The notes beneath the pieces were generated by a model. That model did no database searches and was not told the origin of the DNA. It saw nothing but the letters and a program-made list of their open reading frames with translations. 27,424 nucleotides of DNA from the IMG/VR virus record IMGVR_UViG_3300035241_000048, positions 1 through 27,424 of that record; one strand, written 5' to 3'. A program made the translations under genes and the position numbers. Source of the DNA: a virus. Positions 5,702-24,703 of the stretch are shown in pieces. Numbering within the stretch: the first letter of the stretch is position 1; every line of letters begins with the position of its first letter.

Positions 5702-5989
5702 ATGGTAGTGCAAAAGGGCGACGGCCCGAACGAGATGTACGCCAAGATCGGCGGGGTCGTCCGCTGGTCCGGCGGCACCACGGTCCTGAGGGCCGGGCAG
5801 TCGATCGAGGAGAACCACCCGCTGATCGAGGAACGCCCGGATCTGTTCACGTACGAGGGACCGGGTGCCAGCATCCGGGGCACCGAGAAGCCGAGGGTCG
5901 AGCGGGCCACGCAGGCACCCGGCGAGACCCGGCAGGTCCGCATCCCGCAGAAGCGGGCAGCCAAGAAGGGCGACAGCGGGGATGAGTGA
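5702..5989 (+). CDS. Small head-region protein, unknown
   Basis: This 95-residue protein lies between the capsid gene and the glycosylation module. It has a beta-rich N-terminal half with a VVRWSGGTTVLRAGQ turn and HPLIEERPDLF around residues 40-50, then a basic, Lys/Arg-rich tail ending in an acidic stretch. Proteins of this size and position are often capsid decoration or head-completion proteins, but I see no diagnostic motif. ATG 5702 is chosen because a very strong GAGGAGGAG site lies five to seven bases upstream; a longer frame would run into the terminator. It may have its own promoter. The 3' end overlaps the next gene by eight bases. Confidence 0.8.
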   Translation: MVVQKGDGPNEMYAKIGGVVRWSGGTTVLRAGQSIEENHPLIEERPDLFTYEGPGASIRGTEKPRVERATQAPGETRQVRIPQKRAAKKGDSGDE

Positions 5990-6830
5990 CGCGGGGGCGC
6001 CGGAGCGCCTGGAGGACGAGACGGGTACCGACACCCCCAGCACCACCCCCCCGTTCGCGGGAGAAAGTGCGAGACCCCCCGGCTGGGTGCCCGTGGGCGG
6101 GGTGCAGGTAGCCTACCCCCATGGGAGCCGGGTCTCGCACTCGTTCCACATGAGCTTGATGCAGCTCGTGGGGTACGACGCGGCAATTGGGTCCGGTCTG
6201 CTGCAAGGCACGGGCGGCCCGCTGGCCATCTCGTGTTCCGGGCCACACGGCCTGGTCGAGGGCAGGAACCTGGCGGTGCGCCGCTTCCTGGACGAGACCG
6301 AGCTGGAATGGCTCTGGTTCATCGACACGGACATGGGCTTCGCGCCCGACACACTGGAGCGGCTCTGGTTGGCTGCCGATCCGGTCAACGCGCCGGTCGT
6401 CGGTGGACTCTGCTTCGCTATGAAGCATGTCGGCAATGACGGCATGGGCGGGTTCAAGGTGATGCCGCTGCCTACGCTGTTCAAGCTGGCTAAGACCACC
6501 GACGGCGTGGTTGGGTTCGTCAATCGATTCACGTATCCCGAGGACTCGATGTTGCAGGTGGCCGGTACCGGCGCGGCCTGCATTCTCATCCACCGATCCA
6601 TCCTCGAGGGCATTCGGGCCAAACATGGCGACTCGTGGTTCGATCTGGTGTCCTACGAGAACGGCAAGACCGTCAGCGAGGACCTGTCGTTCTGCTGGCG
6701 AGTCGGCGACCTCGGAGCGCCGATCTTCGTACACACCGGCATCAAGATCACTCACCACAAGGAGCTGTGGCTCGGGGCGGACGACTATGTCATGCCCGAG
6801 CGTGAGCCGCAGTACCGGGAGGTCAAATGA
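5982..6830 (+). CDS. Glycosyltransferase (GT-A, GT2-like)
   Basis: This 282-residue protein is a probable sugar transferase. The core resembles GT-A enzymes: GLVEGRNLAVRRFLD (about residues 88-102) precedes WLWFIDTDMGF (about 107-117), whose Asp-Thr-Asp is the DxD motif that binds metal and nucleotide-sugar. GTGAACILIHRSIL and SEDLSFCWRV downstream fit the acceptor region, Glu-Asp being a likely catalytic acid pair. The first ~45 residues are Pro/Thr/Gly-rich and probably disordered. The gene overlaps the next one (a methyltransferase) by ATGA. The target is inferred to be a phage protein such as capsid or tail, because the module sits in the head operon; modification of a host glycan is the alternative. 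Confidence 0.85.
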   Translation: MSDAGAPERLEDETGTDTPSTTPPFAGESARPPGWVPVGGVQVAYPHGSRVSHSFHMSLMQLVGYDAAIGSGLLQGTGGPLAISCSGPHGLVEGRNLAVRRFLDETELEWLWFIDTDMGFAPDTLERLWLAADPVNAPVVGGLCFAMKHVGNDGMGGFKVMPLPTLFKLAKTTDGVVGFVNRFTYPEDSMLQVAGTGAACILIHRSILEGIRAKHGDSWFDLVSYENGKTVSEDLSFCWRVGDLGAPIFVHTGIKITHHKELWLGADDYVMPEREPQYREVK

Positions 6831-7522
6831 CCATGGATCTGGGGCCGTTCTTCGGCGGTCTGCTGCAATACGACATCGCGCCGCTGCCGAACTGGGACAG
6901 CGACGGCACTTTCTCCACTTTCGAGACCGATACCTTCCGGGCGTTCACCCCGGTCGGGCAGACGGAGATCCAGAAATGCGAGGATGACCTCGACCGGTAC
7001 CGGGAGCTGATCGATATCAGTCAACCCGACATCGTGATCGAGACAGGCACCAGATACGGCGGGTCCGCCCTCTGGTTCCGTGACCAGGGTCTGCAGGTCA
7101 TCAGCATCGACGTGGCCCCCGCGTGGCGCAAGCAGCCATCCCATCTCGGCATCTCGTTCATGCGAGGCAGCTCGCTCGACCCCGCGATGGTCTCGAATGT
7201 CTTGCCCCTGATCCGGGGTAAACGGACCATGGTGAGTCTCGACTCCGACCACTCGTCGCCGCACGTCCAGGCCGAGATGGCAATGTACGGTCCCCTGATT
7301 TCCCCGGGCTGTTACATGGTCGTTGAGGACGGCTGCTTCGATATGTGGGAGCCCAAGAAGGCCCGAGTCGGCGGGCACGGCATCCCGAAGTTCGGTGGGC
7401 CGCTGCACGCCATCTCGACCTCGGGCATCCAACACAACAAGCAGTGGTGGCGAGATGAGTCTCTGGAAGGAAGGACCGGCATATCGCACAGCCCGGCTGG
7501 TTGGTGGCGCAAGCATGAATAA
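6827..7522 (+). CDS. CmcI-like SAM-dependent methyltransferase
   Basis: This 231-residue protein resembles the cephalosporin hydroxylase (CmcI)/rhamnosyl O-methyltransferase family, whose members methylate sugars or secondary metabolites. The Rossmann start PDIVIETGTRYGGSALWF (about residues 66-83) is the SAM-binding loop; VISIDVAP is the acidic strand-2 region; MVSLDSDHSSPHVQAE and SPGCYMVVEDGCFD match the conserved metal and catalytic part of the family. It starts with ATGA coupling to the glycosyltransferase and overlaps the next one by eight bases, so the three are likely made together. The probable job is methylating a sugar placed by the flanking transferases; this is inferred from context. 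Confidence 0.85.
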   Translation: MTMDLGPFFGGLLQYDIAPLPNWDSDGTFSTFETDTFRAFTPVGQTEIQKCEDDLDRYRELIDISQPDIVIETGTRYGGSALWFRDQGLQVISIDVAPAWRKQPSHLGISFMRGSSLDPAMVSNVLPLIRGKRTMVSLDSDHSSPHVQAEMAMYGPLISPGCYMVVEDGCFDMWEPKKARVGGHGIPKFGGPLHAISTSGIQHNKQWWRDESLEGRTGISHSPAGWWRKHE

Positions 7523-8219
7523 GCCAGCCCGGATTGCGATGGTCGTCCCAACCCGGGGCAGGCCCCATTCGGTCGCTCGGATGGCTCGGGCGTGGACCGA
7601 GACCGGCGGCTGGAAGGGCGCCGACCTGTGGTGGGCGATCGATGCCGACGACCCCGAGATGGGGGAGTACATCAAGCAGATGCACGACCACGGGCACAAG
7701 CTGATGCACATCGCGGGTGAGTGGGAGCCGATGGTGCCCAAGCTCAATCGGGTGGCCAAGGTGCTCGCCGAGCAATACGCCTACGTCGGCTTCATGGGGG
7801 ACGACCACCTCCCGCGTACCTTCGACTGGTCGTTCGACATCACGAGTGAGCTGCTGTTCGGTCAGAGGCCCCGGATTGTCTACGGGCGCGACGGCCTGCA
7901 AGACCAGCGGCTCGCGACCTGGTGGGTCATGGACTCGCGTATCGTGCTCGCCCTGGGCCGGATGGTGCCCGCCGACGTCCAGCACCTGTATTGTGACAAC
8001 GCAATCATGGATTTGGGGCGGCAGGCGGGGTGCCTGGACTACATGGAATCGATCTTGATCGAGCACATGCACCCTGTCGCGGGCAAGGCGCCGTGGGACG
8101 ACGGGCATCGCCGGGTCAATCGCAAGCAGCAGTACGAGCGGGATCGGGCCGCGTACTCAGCCTGGGTCGGCAGCCAGCTTGCCTCGGATGTTAGGCTGGT
8201 GCAGCAGATCGGAGGGTAG
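7515..8219 (+). CDS. Second glycosyltransferase-like protein (GT-A fold)
   Basis: This 234-residue protein opens with IAMVVPTRGRPHSVARMARAW, the nucleotide-binding start of GT-A transferases. Residues 40-45 carry DADDPE, and FMGDDHLPRTFDW (about residues 92-104) supplies a second acidic pair that is the better DxD candidate. The remainder contains RIVYGRDGLQDQRLATWWVM and a conserved-looking DNAIMDLG. It is shorter than full-length GT2 enzymes. It overlaps the methyltransferase by eight bases and is followed two bases later by a connector gene. A second transferase acting in series with the first is the simplest reading; enzyme specificity cannot be read from sequence. Confidence 0.78.
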   Translation: MNKPARIAMVVPTRGRPHSVARMARAWTETGGWKGADLWWAIDADDPEMGEYIKQMHDHGHKLMHIAGEWEPMVPKLNRVAKVLAEQYAYVGFMGDDHLPRTFDWSFDITSELLFGQRPRIVYGRDGLQDQRLATWWVMDSRIVLALGRMVPADVQHLYCDNAIMDLGRQAGCLDYMESILIEHMHPVAGKAPWDDGHRRVNRKQQYERDRAAYSAWVGSQLASDVRLVQQIGG

Positions 8220-17300: not shown

Positions 17301-18161
17301 GTGCCGAAATCGGCCGAGTATCCTGATCTGGCGTGGGTCACACCACGCAGTTACACCAAGCTGGACCGCGATCATGTCCAGTTCATTGTCATCCACGACA
17401 CCGAGGGCAGCAGCCACGCTCAGAGTGCGGAGGATGGCGCGGCGTACGATGCCCGCCGGACGGACGGAACCAGCGCGCATTACTTCGTCGACAACAACAG
17501 CATCGTGCAGTGTGTCAAGACGACCGATGCCTCACACACCGCCCTGTACAATGGGAACATGAAGGGCATTCACTACGAGCTGTGCGCTAGGGCCAGTTTC
17601 AGTGAATCCAAGTGGCTGAGTCCGGACTACGGTCTGCCGATGCTCAAGTTGGCAGCCAAGCAGGTCGCTCGGGACTGCATCGCCTGGAAGATCCCGGCAC
17701 GCAAGATCGGCCCGTCGCAGATGCGCAACGGCGAGGAGGGCATCTGCGGTCACGTCGATGTCACCTACGCCTACCCCGAAGATGGGGGTGACCACACCGA
17801 CCCCGGTTCGAATTTCCCGTGGCCGGAGTTCATCCGGATGGTCCAGGACGAGATGGAGCTTGAATTGAACGACGCAGACAAGGCGTGGATGAAGGAGAAC
17901 ATCCTCCTCCCGCTGACCAAGGTGGACTCGCAGGGTGAGGCCAACAACAACACCCAGACCAGCGTCATCGGTCGCAACGCGCTCGGCCAGGGCGTGCCCA
18001 ACCCGATCACCAAGGCTCGGGGTGGCGCCAAGAAGACGGCCGTCTGGGACCTGCTGGAAGACATGGCCCAGGCGCTGCTGACTCTCGACGAGCAGTTGGT
18101 GACGGTCGGTGCCGAACTGGCCGAGATCAAGGCGCAGCTCCCGCAGCCGCCCGCTAACTAA
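17301..18161 (+). CDS. Endolysin, N-acetylmuramoyl-L-alanine amidase (Amidase_2/PGRP)
   Basis: This 286-residue enzyme should cut the bond between N-acetylmuramic acid and the stem peptide at lysis. The zinc-dependent amidase domain covers about residues 10-175. IVIHDTEG gives His32, CGHVDVTY gives His151, and HTDPGSNFPW gives Asp167, which align with the AmpD His/His/Asp zinc ligands. DASHTALYNGN is the conserved substrate loop. No signal peptide is present, so it needs a holin. Residues 190-286 form a helical, charged region with a terminal coiled coil (LLTLDEQLVTVGAELAEIKAQL) that may bind cell wall or oligomerise. GTG 17301 is chosen for the GGAGGG site four bases upstream; no nearer ATG fits the domain start. 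Confidence 0.93.
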   Translation: MPKSAEYPDLAWVTPRSYTKLDRDHVQFIVIHDTEGSSHAQSAEDGAAYDARRTDGTSAHYFVDNNSIVQCVKTTDASHTALYNGNMKGIHYELCARASFSESKWLSPDYGLPMLKLAAKQVARDCIAWKIPARKIGPSQMRNGEEGICGHVDVTYAYPEDGGDHTDPGSNFPWPEFIRMVQDEMELELNDADKAWMKENILLPLTKVDSQGEANNNTQTSVIGRNALGQGVPNPITKARGGAKKTAVWDLLEDMAQALLTLDEQLVTVGAELAEIKAQLPQPPAN

Positions 18162-18433: not shown

Positions 18434-18492
18434 GCACCGGCTCGGCCGCTGCCCTCGTAGTGATCTGGGCGGTTAAGGGAGGAATCGGATGA
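18430..18492 (+). CDS. Possible 20-residue membrane micro-ORF
   Basis: A 20-codon ORF starts with ATG overlapping the previous TGA and ends with a TGA overlapping the next ATG, so it is coupled by ATGA on both sides. The peptide is MSTGSAAALVVIWAV followed by a Lys-Gly-Gly-Ile-Gly tail, a single short hydrophobic helix. It covers the whole gap between two genes. It has no ribosome site of its own. It could be a real lysis-associated micropeptide or merely spacer that re-initiates translation downstream. Confidence 0.35.
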   Translation: MSTGSAAALVVIWAVKGGIG

Positions 18493-18797
18493 CGACCGTG
18501 CATCGCGTGGTGAGGGTCCCGCTCTACTGGATTCTCGTCGGAGTCGCGGTCATGTTCGTCTCCCCCCTGGCGTCAATCTGGGCATCGGTCACAATCGCCG
18601 AGCGCAACGCCCAGCAGAACGCCAAAGCGCAGGCGGCAGCCAGCGAAGCTGCGCGCATCCGGACCTGCGGGACCTTCGAGGCGCTGCTCGACGTCTACGT
18701 CGAGACCCCGCCGATGACCCCCGCTGGCAGGGGCGTCCAACAGGCGTACCTTGAACAATATCGGGCACTCGGATGTGTGCCCCCCCGCAAGAAATGA
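18489..18797 (+). CDS. Single-pass membrane protein with extracytoplasmic domain
   Basis: This 102-residue protein has one membrane anchor (about residues 12-34, ending PLASIWASV) followed by a hydrophilic region of about 65 residues with two cysteines (CGTFEALLDVYVETPPMTPAGRGVQQAYLEQYRALGCVPP). That architecture, N-in with a soluble outside domain, recurs next to actinophage lysins and is comparable in topology to spanin-type lysis proteins, although function is not established. GGGAGGA lies seven bases before the ATG. The two Cys could form a disulfide outside the cell. Confidence 0.8.
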   Translation: MTTVHRVVRVPLYWILVGVAVMFVSPLASIWASVTIAERNAQQNAKAQAAASEAARIRTCGTFEALLDVYVETPPMTPAGRGVQQAYLEQYRALGCVPPRKK

Positions 18798-18805
18798 GGA
18801 CGAGA

Positions 18806-18994
18806 ATGGGACGGATCAAGAAGGCGATCGCCGCTGGTGTGACCGGCGGCATCGCGTCGGCCGTGGCTGCCTTGGCCGGTGCGGTGCAGGCTGGTGGCGT
18901 CAACAAGGACGCGGTCGGCGCGGCTATCGGCGGTTTCATCGTCGGTGGTGTCGCGGCGGGCTACGCGGCCTACAAGGCGAAGAACACGCTCTGA
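18806..18994 (+). CDS. Gly/Ala-rich two-helix membrane protein, holin candidate
   Basis: This 62-residue protein has a basic start (MGRIKKA) and two Gly/Ala-rich membrane helices (about residues 8-30 and 37-57) joined by a short GGVNKDA turn, and ends in YKAKNTL. The glycine-zipper-like character and size suit a class II holin. ATG 18806 is chosen because GAGGACGAGA precedes it; an upstream in-frame ATG at 18794 overlaps the previous gene and has no site. The stop overlaps the next start by one base (TGATG). Confidence 0.78.
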   Translation: MGRIKKAIAAGVTGGIASAVAALAGAVQAGGVNKDAVGAAIGGFIVGGVAAGYAAYKAKNTL

Positions 18995-19239
18995 TGTCGC
19001 TTTGGACGATCGCCTGGCTCGGGTGGGGGCTTATCTTCGCCGTCATCGAGGGCATGGCGCTGTTCAACTCGACTAAGGGGGACACGCTCAGCGAACACGC
19101 CTGGGCGTGGCTCGGCTACGCGGCGACCGGCAGCGGGGAGCTGCGTTCGCCGTCTGGTTGGACTCGGCTGCGCAGGTTCCTTCTGCTGGCCGGTCTCGCC
19201 TGGCTGTCCATCCACCTGCTCACGGGCGGGGTTTTCTGA
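18994..19239 (+). CDS. Two-helix membrane protein of lysis cassette
   Basis: This 81-residue protein has an N-terminal hydrophobic segment (WTIAWLGWGLIFAVIEGMALF, residues 4-24), a central soluble loop with GDTLSEHAWAWLG, and a C-terminal hydrophobic segment (FLLLAGLAWLSIHLLTGG). The ExxALxNxxxGDTLSEHxWxW pattern recurs in actinophage genes beside lysins. It is coupled by TGATG to the previous gene and ends two bases before the neprosin-like gene. The role is probably in lysis or membrane modification, not proven. Confidence 0.8.
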   Translation: MSLWTIAWLGWGLIFAVIEGMALFNSTKGDTLSEHAWAWLGYAATGSGELRSPSGWTRLRRFLLLAGLAWLSIHLLTGGVF

Positions 19240-19241
19240 AA

Positions 19242-20135
19242 ATGAGGGTCATGTTCCGTCGTCTGATCACCATCGCTACCGGCGCGCTGATGCTGTTCGC
19301 CGGTGCGGCCGTTGCTCCGCTCCCGGCGCAGGCTGGTAACCACCAGCCGCCGCTGTTCGCTCCGGTTGTCGTCCCCGCCAAACCATGCTGGGGCGACTGC
19401 ATCGTCAAGCCGGGGGCGAAGCTGACCCCGAAGTCGAAGCCGCTGCCCGCTGGGACGTCGGCCCGCCGGGCACTCACATATTTCTACGCCACGGCCAACC
19501 AGACCGGGTTGTCGGGCATCAACCAATTCGGTTGGGCGAAGGACATCCAGGCGCCCTCGGTGGCGGCTGGCGACTTCCACTCGCTGATCGAAGTGAGTGT
19601 CCAGAACGGCAACAACATCCTGGAGCTCGGCTGGACCGTCGACCCGGGCGTGTTCGGCGACAACAACCCGCATCTGTTCACCGGCATCTGGATCAACGGC
19701 GTCTGGCAGGGATACAACCCGGCGTCGTTCGTCGACAACAGCAGCAATGCCGTCAACAACGGGGCTAGCCTGGCAGGTGCCGTTGGCACGTCCAAGACAT
19801 TCGGTGTCATCTACACCGGTGGGGCGTGGTGGGTTGCCTACAACGGAGCCTACATCGGCAGTTTCCCCGGGACGCTATGGAGCGGTGCGTTCACCACGGG
19901 CACGGTCGTACAGGCGTTCGGCGAGGTGGCAGCCAACAGCGGATCGCCGTGCACCGACATGGGTAACGGCACCCTGGCCACTTCGAGTGTCGGCCCCCGG
20001 GTCTCCAGCATGACCTACAACGGCGCGACCACCGGCGTCAACTTGGGGATCTCGACCATCACCAACAGCAGCTACTACAACGCGGCGTCGATCACGGCCC
20101 GGTCGATCCGGGCATCAGGACCCGGCGCCTGCTAG
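19242..20135 (+). CDS. Secreted neprosin-family protein (predicted glutamic prolyl endopeptidase)
   Basis: This 297-residue protein carries a clear Sec signal peptide (basic MRVMFRR, hydrophobic core to about 25, cleavage likely after AQA at 31). The mature part matches the neprosin (DUF239) beta-sandwich: FYATANQTGLSGINQFGWAKD, then NILELGWTVDPGVFGDN, HLFTGIWINGVWQGYN, GVIYTGGAWWVAYNGAYIGSFPG and VVQAFGEVAANSGSPCTDMGNG. The two glutamates shown to be catalytic in plant neprosin correspond to Glu128 (ELGWTV) and Glu228 (FGEV). Cys49/Cys53 and Cys237/Cys297 could form disulfides. It is the last rightward late gene and has only a weak ribosome site (GGCGGGG), so it may be coupled to the gene ending at 19239. 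Its substrate is unknown. Confidence 0.82.
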   Translation: MRVMFRRLITIATGALMLFAGAAVAPLPAQAGNHQPPLFAPVVVPAKPCWGDCIVKPGAKLTPKSKPLPAGTSARRALTYFYATANQTGLSGINQFGWAKDIQAPSVAAGDFHSLIEVSVQNGNNILELGWTVDPGVFGDNNPHLFTGIWINGVWQGYNPASFVDNSSNAVNNGASLAGAVGTSKTFGVIYTGGAWWVAYNGAYIGSFPGTLWSGAFTTGTVVQAFGEVAANSGSPCTDMGNGTLATSSVGPRVSSMTYNGATTGVNLGISTITNSSYYNAASITARSIRASGPGAC

Positions 20136-20239: not shown

Positions 20240-20281
20240 GATCGGCCCCCGCCCCACCTGCCCGGTGTGCGGGGGCCGATC
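20240..20281. terminator. Bidirectional terminator between late and leftward genes
   Basis: A perfect 13-bp inverted repeat (GATCGGCCCCCGC at 20240-20252, complement at 20269-20281) with a 16-base loop lies between convergent genes that end at 20135 and 20292. It is symmetrical and can stop transcription from both sides. Confidence 0.85.
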
Positions 20282-20511: not shown

Positions 20512-20517
20512 ATATCT

Positions 20518-21851: not shown

Positions 21852-22175
21852 TTACTTGCTCCTCACCATGTTAGCCATCTCGGAGTTGCCGTTTGCGCGC
21901 TTGTAGATCCGGACGTTGCGCGCTTCGGGTCGTGCCCCCCGGACCAGCTCCCCCCGGGCGACCATCCGCTGGCGCTCCCACTGGTCCACCCCGCCCCAGA
22001 TGCCAATCATCGATCTGGTGTCTGCGGCGAACTGCAAGCACAGCTCACGCAGCGGGCAGAACTTGCAGATCGATTTGGCCGTGGCTGCGTCTCCACTGCT
22101 GGCGCTGGCCTCGCTGATGGGGAACCACCACTCGGGGTCGTGATCGGCGCACCGCGCCCGTTCAATCTGCGGCAT
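21852..22175 (-). CDS. whiB: WhiB-family iron-sulfur transcription regulator
   Basis: This 107-residue protein has the WhiB signature: C9 (ARCADHDPEWWFP), then C37-x-x-C40-x5-C46 (SICKFCPLRELC) that ligate a [4Fe-4S] cluster, followed by the GIWGG turn (residues 58-62) that contacts the sigma factor sigma-A region 4, and a basic C-terminal tail. Host WhiB proteins control division and antibiotic resistance; phage TM4 WhiB is known to interfere with host whiB2 function. Here a role in reprogramming host RNA polymerase or blocking superinfection is plausible. ATG 22175 has AGGAG upstream, its own divergent promoter (22220-22248) and a leader hairpin. Confidence 0.93.
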   Translation of the reverse strand: MPQIERARCADHDPEWWFPISEASASSGDAATAKSICKFCPLRELCLQFAADTRSMIGIWGGVDQWERQRMVARGELVRGARPEARNVRIYKRANGNSEMANMVRSK

Positions 22176-22331: not shown

Positions 22332-22988
22332 ATGACCGACACCACCACCGAGGCCCCGGCCGAGAAGCCCGCCAAGGCCGTACCAGCGCCGCGCGCCTGC
22401 ATCTGCTCCCGATTCGAGATCGGCAGCGATGGTGCACGTGAGACCACCGGCTGCCGACAGGAATCAATCCGGGGCTTCGCCCAGGGCCACGACGCCAAGC
22501 TGGCCTCGTTCCTGGTCACCGCGTACGCCGAGAACCAGGAGATCCGGGAGAACACGCCCGAGGGCACCAAGGTGCACGCCACCCCGAGCGCGGCCGTGGC
22601 CGACGTCAGCGCGGCCCTGCAGACCAAGGTGGAGCGCATGACGGAGAACGCCGTCAGCAAGCGCGACGCCCGACTCGCCCGTGAGGCAGCCAGGGCGCAG
22701 GCCAAGGCCGAGCGTGAGGCCGAGGCCCAGCGCAAGAAGGACGAGCGTGAGGCCAAGAAGAACGAGGCCAAGCCCCCGCGCGAGGTCGGCGCCAAGGTGG
22801 CCGAGGGCACGGTCGTCAGCGACGGTCCCTCGCGGTTCTCCATCATCAAGGTCGGTCGCCACGAGTACGAGGCGGACATCGACCCGAACACCAAGGTCGC
22901 GACCTACCGCGACCAGGAGGGCGTGGAGCAGACCCGCGAGGAGGGCGCCTACCGGCTACGCAAGCTGGCGGACGCGCCTGCCGCCTGA
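22332..22988 (+). CDS. Cys-motif/GHDAKL protein with Ala/Lys/Glu coiled coil, paralogue A
   Basis: This 218-residue protein is a paralogue of the one at 23341. N-terminal C23-x-C25 and C41 precede IRGFAQGHDAKLASFLV (H53 in GHD), a candidate metal-binding module of the type seen in several actinophage proteins. The middle (about residues 115-155) is a highly charged Ala/Arg/Glu/Lys coiled coil. The C-terminus has IKVGRHEYEADIDPNTKVATYRDQEG, a small beta module also seen in the paralogue. The charged middle could bind nucleic acid. It is first in the rightward string and has the strongest promoter. GGAGGACGAG fits the ATG at 22332. Function unknown. Confidence 0.82.
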   Translation: MTDTTTEAPAEKPAKAVPAPRACICSRFEIGSDGARETTGCRQESIRGFAQGHDAKLASFLVTAYAENQEIRENTPEGTKVHATPSAAVADVSAALQTKVERMTENAVSKRDARLAREAARAQAKAEREAEAQRKKDEREAKKNEAKPPREVGAKVAEGTVVSDGPSRFSIIKVGRHEYEADIDPNTKVATYRDQEGVEQTREEGAYRLRKLADAPAA

Positions 22989-23004: not shown

Positions 23005-23031
23005 GTGCCCCGGGGGGTTCCCTCGGGGCAC
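23005..23031 (+). terminator. Terminator hairpin whose loop carries the next -35
   Basis: GTGCCCCG (23005-23012) pairs with CGGGGCAC (23024-23031), with inner wobble pairs. The loop holds GGTTCCCT, the -35-like element of the following promoter. Confidence 0.7.
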
Positions 23032-23047
23032 ATCCATATGGTAAAAT
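23018..23047 (+). promoter_or_regulatory. Promoter TTCCCT-N18-TAAAAT with TGG extension
   Basis: The sequence TATGG-TAAAAT-AGAAATA (23037-23054) is an extended -10 in strongly AT-rich context; TTCCCT in the terminator loop is 18 bases upstream. It drives the gene at 23090. The leader here is A-rich and unstructured, unlike the other cassettes. Confidence 0.75.
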
Positions 23048-23089
23048 AGAAATATAAGAGAGAGAAACACCAAAACAAGGGAGCTCGAA

Positions 23090-23250: not shown

Positions 23251-23268
23251 GGGGGGTTGCTTCCCCCC
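23251..23268 (+). terminator. Hairpin between 23090 and 23341 genes
   Basis: GGGGGG (23251-23256) pairs with CCCCCC (23263-23268) around TTGCTT. The loop also contains the -35-like TTGCTT of the next promoter. Confidence 0.6.
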
Positions 23269-23286
23269 CGCCCAATATGGTAAAAT
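23257..23286 (+). promoter_or_regulatory. Promoter TTGCTT-N18-TAAAAT with TGG extension
   Basis: TATGG-TAAAAT-AGAGATA (23276-23293) with TTGCTT (23257-23262) 18 bases upstream inside the hairpin loop. It drives the gene at 23341. Confidence 0.7.
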
Positions 23287-23297
23287 AGAGATAGAAC

Positions 23298-23340: not shown

Positions 23341-23895
23341 ATGGCCACCACCACCGCCCCCCGCAAGACCACCACTCTCCACGCCTGCGAGTGCTCCAAG
23401 TGGGAGTTCGACTTGGACGTGGAGCGCGACGACGACTACAGCACCGGCTGCACCGCGCAGACCAAGCGGATCTTCGCCCAGGGCCACGACGCCAAGCTGG
23501 TCGGATTCATGGTCCGGGCCGAGCTGGCCGGTCACGACATCAGCCGCACGGACGGCGGGGTGTTGGTGACCTTCGGGGGGGCCGTGCACGCGGCGGGCAA
23601 AATCAGCGAGGCGCTCGCCGTCAAGGCGGAGGCGATGCTCACGGCGCAGGTGGCCAAGGCCACCAAGAAGCGGCACCGCACCGAGGTGAAGGCGGCAGGC
23701 GCCAAGCTGGCATTGGCGGAGTACCAGGAGGCCAAGCAGGCCAAGGCGGAGATCCCCCCGATCGAGGCGGAGATCAAGGTCGGCCGTTGGACCTACCCGG
23801 CGCTGGTCGAGACGGTGAGCGGCGAGGCGACCTACACGGCGAAGTCGGGCGTCGTCCGGACCCTCGCCCGGGGCGAGTACATCCTCCTCCCGTGA
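23341..23895 (+). CDS. Cys-motif/GHDAKL protein, paralogue B
   Basis: This 184-residue protein shares with paralogue A (22332) the C-x-C ... TGC ... FAQGHDAKL layout: C16-x-C18, C37 and FAQGHDAKL (residues 45-53), then a shorter Ala/Lys helical middle (AVKAEAMLTAQVAKATKKRHRTEVKAAG), and the C-terminal IKVGRWTYPALVETVSGEATY that matches KVGRHEYEADI in A. The acidic insertion in the Cys region differs. AAGGAG lies nine bases before the ATG. It is followed by a Crp-like site and a terminator. The paralogues probably bind related partners; metal or nucleic acid binding is inferred from the residues, not known. Confidence 0.82.
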   Translation: MATTTAPRKTTTLHACECSKWEFDLDVERDDDYSTGCTAQTKRIFAQGHDAKLVGFMVRAELAGHDISRTDGGVLVTFGGAVHAAGKISEALAVKAEAMLTAQVAKATKKRHRTEVKAAGAKLALAEYQEAKQAKAEIPPIEAEIKVGRWTYPALVETVSGEATYTAKSGVVRTLARGEYILLP

Positions 23896-23911: not shown

Positions 23912-23937
23912 GGGCCGGGGGGGTTACCTCCCGGCCC
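23912..23937 (+). terminator. Terminator hairpin whose loop carries the next -35
   Basis: GGGCCGGG (23912-23919) pairs with CCCGGCCC (23930-23937). The loop contains TTACCT, the -35-like element of the next promoter. Confidence 0.65.
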
Positions 23938-23952
23938 CTCCTATGGTAGAAT
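23924..23952 (+). promoter_or_regulatory. Promoter TTACCT-N17-TAGAAT with TGG extension
   Basis: TATGG-TAGAAT-AGAAATA (23942-23959) with TTACCT (23924-23929) 17 bases upstream. It drives the gene at 23999 and, by lack of another promoter, also the one at 24303. Confidence 0.75.
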
Positions 23953-23966
23953 AGAAATATAAGGGA

Positions 23967-24443: not shown

Positions 24444-24470
24444 GCCCCCCGGGGGATTCCTCCGGGGGGC
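24444..24470 (+). terminator. Terminator hairpin whose loop carries the next -35
   Basis: GCCCCCCGG (24444-24452) pairs with CCGGGGGGC (24462-24470). ATTCCTC in the loop is the -35-like element of the next promoter. Confidence 0.65.
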
Positions 24471-24485
24471 ACCCTATGGTAGGAT
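24457..24485 (+). promoter_or_regulatory. Promoter TTCCTC-N17-TAGGAT with TGG extension
   Basis: TATGG-TAGGAT-AGAAATA (24475-24492) with TTCCTC (24457-24462) 17 bases upstream. It drives the 24529 micro-gene. Unlike three other cassettes no Crp-like palindrome is present. Confidence 0.75.
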
Positions 24486-24494
24486 AGAAATATC

Positions 24495-24510
24495 GGGGCC
24501 GTCCGGCCCC
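24495..24510 (+). other. Leader hairpin
   Basis: GGGGCC (24495-24500) pairs with GGCCCC (24505-24510) around GTCC, about three bases after the predicted transcription start. Confidence 0.55.
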
Positions 24511-24647: not shown

Positions 24648-24676
24648 GTGCCCCGGGGGGGATTCCTCCGGGGCAC
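24648..24676 (+). terminator. Terminator hairpin whose loop carries the next -35
   Basis: GTGCCCCGG (24648-24656) pairs with CCGGGGCAC (24668-24676). The 3' part of the loop contains ATTCCTC. It is nearly identical to the hairpin at 23005-23031. Confidence 0.7.
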
Positions 24677-24692
24677 ACCCGTATGGTAAAAT
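24663..24692 (+). promoter_or_regulatory. Promoter TTCCTC-N18-TAAAAT with TGG extension
   Basis: TATGG-TAAAAT-AAACATA (24682-24699) with TTCCTC (24663-24668) 18 bases upstream. It drives the 24746 gene. Confidence 0.75.
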
Positions 24693-24703
24693 AAACATAG
24701 AAC

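Follow-up and report, generated by a model that had tools for sequence, protein, structure and literature searches.

A predicted secreted neprosin-like protein with a divergent glutamate site, encoded beside the lysis genes of one phage and in other phage genomes

Gene order around the neprosin-like gene

We analysed an entire IMG/VR record of an actinobacterial virus, 27,424 bp long (hereafter the window), in which a left arm with terminase, head, tail and endolysin genes and a lysis-like block is followed by a right arm whose small genes are partly convergent and partly divergent. The endolysin, an N-acetylmuramoyl-L-alanine amidase on the plus strand (17301..18161; longest frame from 17262), was recognised by Amidase_2 (E=1.9e-14) and by PHROG endolysin families. 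Further along the same strand, hydropathy revealed a small protein with an N-terminal hydrophobic segment (18489..18797) and a 62-aa, holin-like candidate with two such segments (18806..18994). These are followed by a phiC31 gp29-like membrane protein (18994..19239, +; phrog_3555, E=4.6e-27), whose family comprises Streptomyces phage proteins including gp29 itself. Small genes resembling the holin-like candidate were also found just 5′ of the phrog_3555 gene in two other genomes, L004 and L041.

The open reading frame that an earlier note had placed at 19242..20135 (+) lies downstream of the amidase, begins only 2 nt beyond the phrog_3555 gene and is the last gene of this rightward late block. 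The frame is real, encoding 297 residues with an alternative in-frame start at 19251, and its GC3 (0.847) is similar to that of the adjoining genes. A terminator-like hairpin with a 13-bp GC-rich stem (20240..20281, no strand assigned; RNA fold −36.4 kcal/mol, z=−4.57) separates it from the convergent right-arm genes.

An intergenic repeat ending in TATGGTA(G/A)AATAGA precedes right-arm genes on both strands (6 core matches against 0.01 expected), at 20515, 21188, 23012–23057, 23251–23296, 23917–23962, 24450–24495 and 24657–24702, and resembles an early promoter or operator present in several copies. All copies lie beyond 20500 and none stands before the neprosin-like gene. The right arm also holds a candidate WhiB-type iron-sulphur regulator, proposed from its Cys spacing (21852–22175, −), and two apparent paralogues (22332–22988 and 23341–23895) that have a FAQGHDAKL region in common (85% over 48 nt). 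Within the structural block, at 5982–8219, three genes appeared glycosyltransferase- and methyltransferase-like by eye (5982–6830, 6827–7522 and 7539–8219). No tRNA or Rfam family was detected in the window.

The N-terminus of the 297-residue protein has the make-up of a Sec signal peptide, as had been claimed. Residues 1–31 (19242..19334, +) comprise MRVMFRR, a hydrophobic core and APLPAQA, and hydropathy together with the A-x-A motif predicts cleavage after AQA; all phage relatives likewise carry an N-terminal hydrophobic segment after Lys/Arg. The next ~46 residues (19335..19472, +) form a linker with a CWGDC motif and no folded pro-domain, AlphaFold giving pLDDT <50 for residues 13–61.

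Fold and active-site residues of the encoded protein

PF03080 (Neprosin) was the only Pfam domain found in the protein, with no recognisable pro-domain beside it. With a score of 57.9 bits the match cleared the curated cut-off of 22 (E=1.2e-15), so the resemblance is not a chance one, and the fold matches in the PDB also ruled this out. By phmmer, the neprosin entries 9qr8, 7zu8 and 7zvb were the top three PDB matches, though weak (E=0.02–0.05), and a further match, 9r8s (E=0.13), was taken as noise. An AlphaFold model built from 20 relatives had a confident core at about residues 79–233, with block means mostly >90 pLDDT. Searching the PDB with this model placed neprosin crystal structures at ranks 1–5 (probability 1.00, TM 0.50–0.66, E~2e-10), with a Bacillus protease and scytalidoglutamic peptidase behind them, in agreement with the neprosin fold that had been proposed. 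A viral structure library yielded distant sandwiches only, among them plant-virus glutamic peptidase polyproteins. Assignment to the glutamic-type peptidases is well supported.

The nearest characterised protein is neprosin of Nepenthes (PF03080; PDB 7zu8, 7zva-c), classified as MEROPS U74 (PMC9147577), with which the window protein shares the beta-sandwich, a Glu/Glu dyad, a signal peptide, the equivalent of Y220 (Y158 here) and an MG-x-G motif. Eqolisins such as scytalidoglutamic peptidase (G1; 2ifr, 1s2b) have a related fold and a catalytic Glu in common with it but are of low identity and use a Gln/Glu dyad (PMC9343461), and E128 of the window protein occupies the eqolisin Gln position. 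The glutamic peptidases of plant viruses (Strawberry mottle virus) also have a related fold and a catalytic Glu, but they are polyprotein domains of low identity.

Profile alignment to neprosin (hhalign 98.7%, E=3.3e-16) and phmmer agreed on the dyad. E128 in ELGWTV (19623..19625, +) aligned with catalytic E188, and E228 in FGEV (19923..19925, +) with catalytic E297, exactly as had been suggested, at a spacing of 100 residues in the window protein and 109 in neprosin. On this alignment, the two glutamates would meet in space.

The surrounding residues are different. In pitcher-plant neprosin, activity is abolished by Q173A and W175A and cut by about 80% by H134A, Y136A and Y214A (PMC9343461), Q173 and W175 forming the oxyanion hole. 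The window protein differs at all five positions: its H113-S-L-I-E117 signature (19578..19592, +) puts E117 at the site of Q173 and H113 at that of F169, profile alignment puts S119 (19596..19598, +) at that of W175, and S73, R75 and V154 stand where neprosin has H134, Y136 and Y214. The plant enzyme is moreover a zymogen with a folded pro-domain, which the window protein lacks. The label "acid prolyl endopeptidase" cannot be transferred, because five plant residues and the pro-domain are missing, and the earlier suggestion that the pitcher-plant chemistry carries over was not borne out. Fold and dyad make Glu/Glu peptidase activity likely; prolyl specificity and an acidic optimum do not follow from them.

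We then tabulated these residues for 14 proteins borne by phages and 17 encoded on actinobacterial chromosomes; one more chromosomal protein, L039, was read by eye and agreed. E128 and E228 were invariant in every protein tabulated, which suggests selection for catalysis, and H113 and E117 in all 32 proteins compared. Neither Q nor W ever occurred at the plant Q173 and W175 positions in these proteins, the latter position holding a small residue, whereas two bacterial proteins, L033 and L037, retain the plant-like F-S-L-x-Q-x-W motif. Judged by these residues, PF03080 divides into a plant-like class I and an actinobacterial and phage class II (names coined here), the latter comprising the window protein, its phage relatives and most actinobacterial neprosins.

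The loss of two residues essential in the plant enzyme, together with a fold that also resembles galectins and GH16 enzymes, could mean that the protein has no peptidase activity and is a pseudo-enzyme whose beta-sandwich binds wall sugars or proteins. We consider such a non-catalytic binder very improbable, given that no class II protein compared lacks the dyad glutamates, H113 or E117 and that neprosin structures clearly outranked lectins in the PDB fold search.

Relatives in other phages and in actinobacterial chromosomes

Class II genes were found in 12 other IMG/VR viral contigs and in one phage-like contig of a Nocardioides MAG, and 10 of the 14 phage members match PF03080 at E<=0.01. 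The viral-contig relatives were recovered with alignments as query, a single protein being insufficient: the window protein by itself retrieved no relatives when the viral contigs were scanned, and neither did the window's terminase. Likewise, tblastn with the window, L004 and Catenulispora proteins gave no match in 50,697 phage records, no class II phage neprosin was present in INPHARED, PHROGs or NCBIfam, and the window had no close DNA relatives among phages. A literature search linking neprosin to phages returned a single irrelevant match; its coverage was partial and an unseen report is possible. Within the databases and literature searched, no described phage neprosin came to light, in line with the earlier statement that none with an assigned role was known. 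What is new within the already known PF03080 family is the variant lineage in phages and the variant site of class II.

For most carriers, phage origin is given by neighbouring genes (portal, major head, terminase, tape measure, tail fibre, primase/polymerase, helicase and SbcD), while for L022 and L027 the neighbours give weaker evidence. At 47%, the best match among genomes was in the 41.9-kb Nocardioides MAG contig, which reads as phage, with tail genes related to those of the window, a phrog_3555 protein 82.7% identical (L004) and a RecE-like exonuclease. Terminase-like frames seen by eye at both of its ends suggest a circular map, and the contig (L030–L032) is probably an entire phage genome that was binned with a bacterial MAG. 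Nocardioides is a host lead only, because the binning could be wrong. In another carrier, L028 (IMGVR_UViG_3300025918_000006), the neprosin gene lies directly 3′ of a QueC-like gene; the 51-kb map of this contig is probably circular, because the gene is cut off at one end and the rest of it is matched at the opposite end.

Uncharacterised chromosomal class II neprosins of Kitasatospora, Streptomyces, Catenulispora and Actinoplanes have a residue signature identical to that of the window protein. In a maximum-likelihood tree, with a rough bootstrap and with L022 and L029 on long branches, the 14 phage proteins and three chromosomal ones formed one clade with support of 96/96, apart from the streptomycete clade. 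The Streptomycetaceae and Catenulispora neprosins of that separate clade mostly carry a CW[YF]GxC motif at the domain start. Neprosin was rare in host-like genomes: 4 of 200 from the family to which the Nocardioides MAG belongs had it (one being the phage contig itself), as did 3 of 395 from the class that includes a Kitasatospora. Recent pick-up of a host gene was ruled out by the neighbour-like GC3 and the phage clade in the tree.

The position of the gene varies among carriers. Its placement in a lysis region, as first described, holds for the window, where it follows the Amidase_2 endolysin and the small hydrophobic-segment genes, and for L019, where the relative comes just after a holin gene; these were the only two carriers examined in which the place with endolysin or holin is conserved, and most relatives are sited elsewhere. 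A dedicated lysis function cannot be claimed on that account. Furthermore, no neprosin was found in L041 (48 kb), whose phrog_3555 gene is 83% identical, so the protein is not needed for lysis. Because its position varies and L041 lacks it, the phage neprosin is an accessory gene.

Morons often lie on the strand opposite to structural genes, as the neprosin gene does in L023, L024 and L029, and class II neprosins occur on actinobacterial chromosomes. The gene might accordingly serve lysogenic conversion, giving the host one more exoprotease with which to feed or compete. We regard this reading as less likely and on balance decidedly doubtful, as a tyrosine integrase turned up in just one of the 13 carrier records, a serine recombinase in none of them, and the window gene lies in line with the late genes, without the promoter-like repeat of the right arm. 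Many carrier contigs may be incomplete and the lack of integrases is for that reason not proven, but their scarcity leans towards a benefit in the lytic cycle.

A possible role in the lytic cycle

Our best explanation, to which we give about an even chance, is that the gene encodes a Sec-exported class II glutamic-type peptidase that acts in the lytic cycle and helps release by cutting proteins of the host wall or surface. Under this proposal, a peptidase lineage would have moved among mostly integrase-less actinophages; the gene would probably be expressed late, co-transcribed with the lysis genes; the protein would be exported via the host Sec system and would cleave wall-associated or surface host proteins; and this cleavage would help the wall to open and virions to disperse. 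From the neprosin matches, the invariant dyad, the signal-type N-termini, the gene order, the hairpin, the GC3, the phage clade and the few integrases, we infer that the protein acts as a peptidase, that it is made late, what it cuts and how the phage benefits. Against the proposal stand the non-conservation of residues essential or important in the plant enzyme, the location of most relatives outside lysis cassettes and the neprosin-free L041. A precedent for the idea of an exported, phage-origin protease acting on the envelope to promote lysis is the secreted metzincin Mtz of Listeria, which sensitises cells to lysins (PMC8235301). Mtz is no relative, having an unrelated fold and chemistry and belonging to a regulatory-switch locus on the chromosome.

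The export signal and the conserved residues would fit equally well a receptor-destroying or exclusion enzyme that strips surface proteins bound by the phage or its competitors, stopping superinfection and the loss of progeny to debris. An accessory, movable gene is also what would be expected by analogy with genes of inter-phage competition. Although this is a close rival, we hold it to be unlikely, as the carriers are unrelated phages, which would need different receptors.

Beyond the lytic-release explanation, we propose tentatively, and with some doubt, that actinophages own an old lineage of glutamic peptidases that reshapes the surface of the host after export during lytic infection and stands beside endolysins and depolymerases as a new class of phage enzyme. 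Its undescribed catalytic site would consist of the Glu/Glu dyad, an invariant His and a third Glu, with no oxyanion Trp/Gln.

Phages export sugar- and wall-cutting enzymes, and to our knowledge proteases exported in the lytic cycle have hardly been described. Glutamic catalysis is rare among peptidases, and such enzymes are of practical interest in proteomics and in the digestion of gluten. If our reading is true, these proteins would be new glutamic peptidases that lack a pro-domain and differ in their active site, and the recurrent neprosin-like clade in phages would point to surface proteolysis as a repeated phage strategy.
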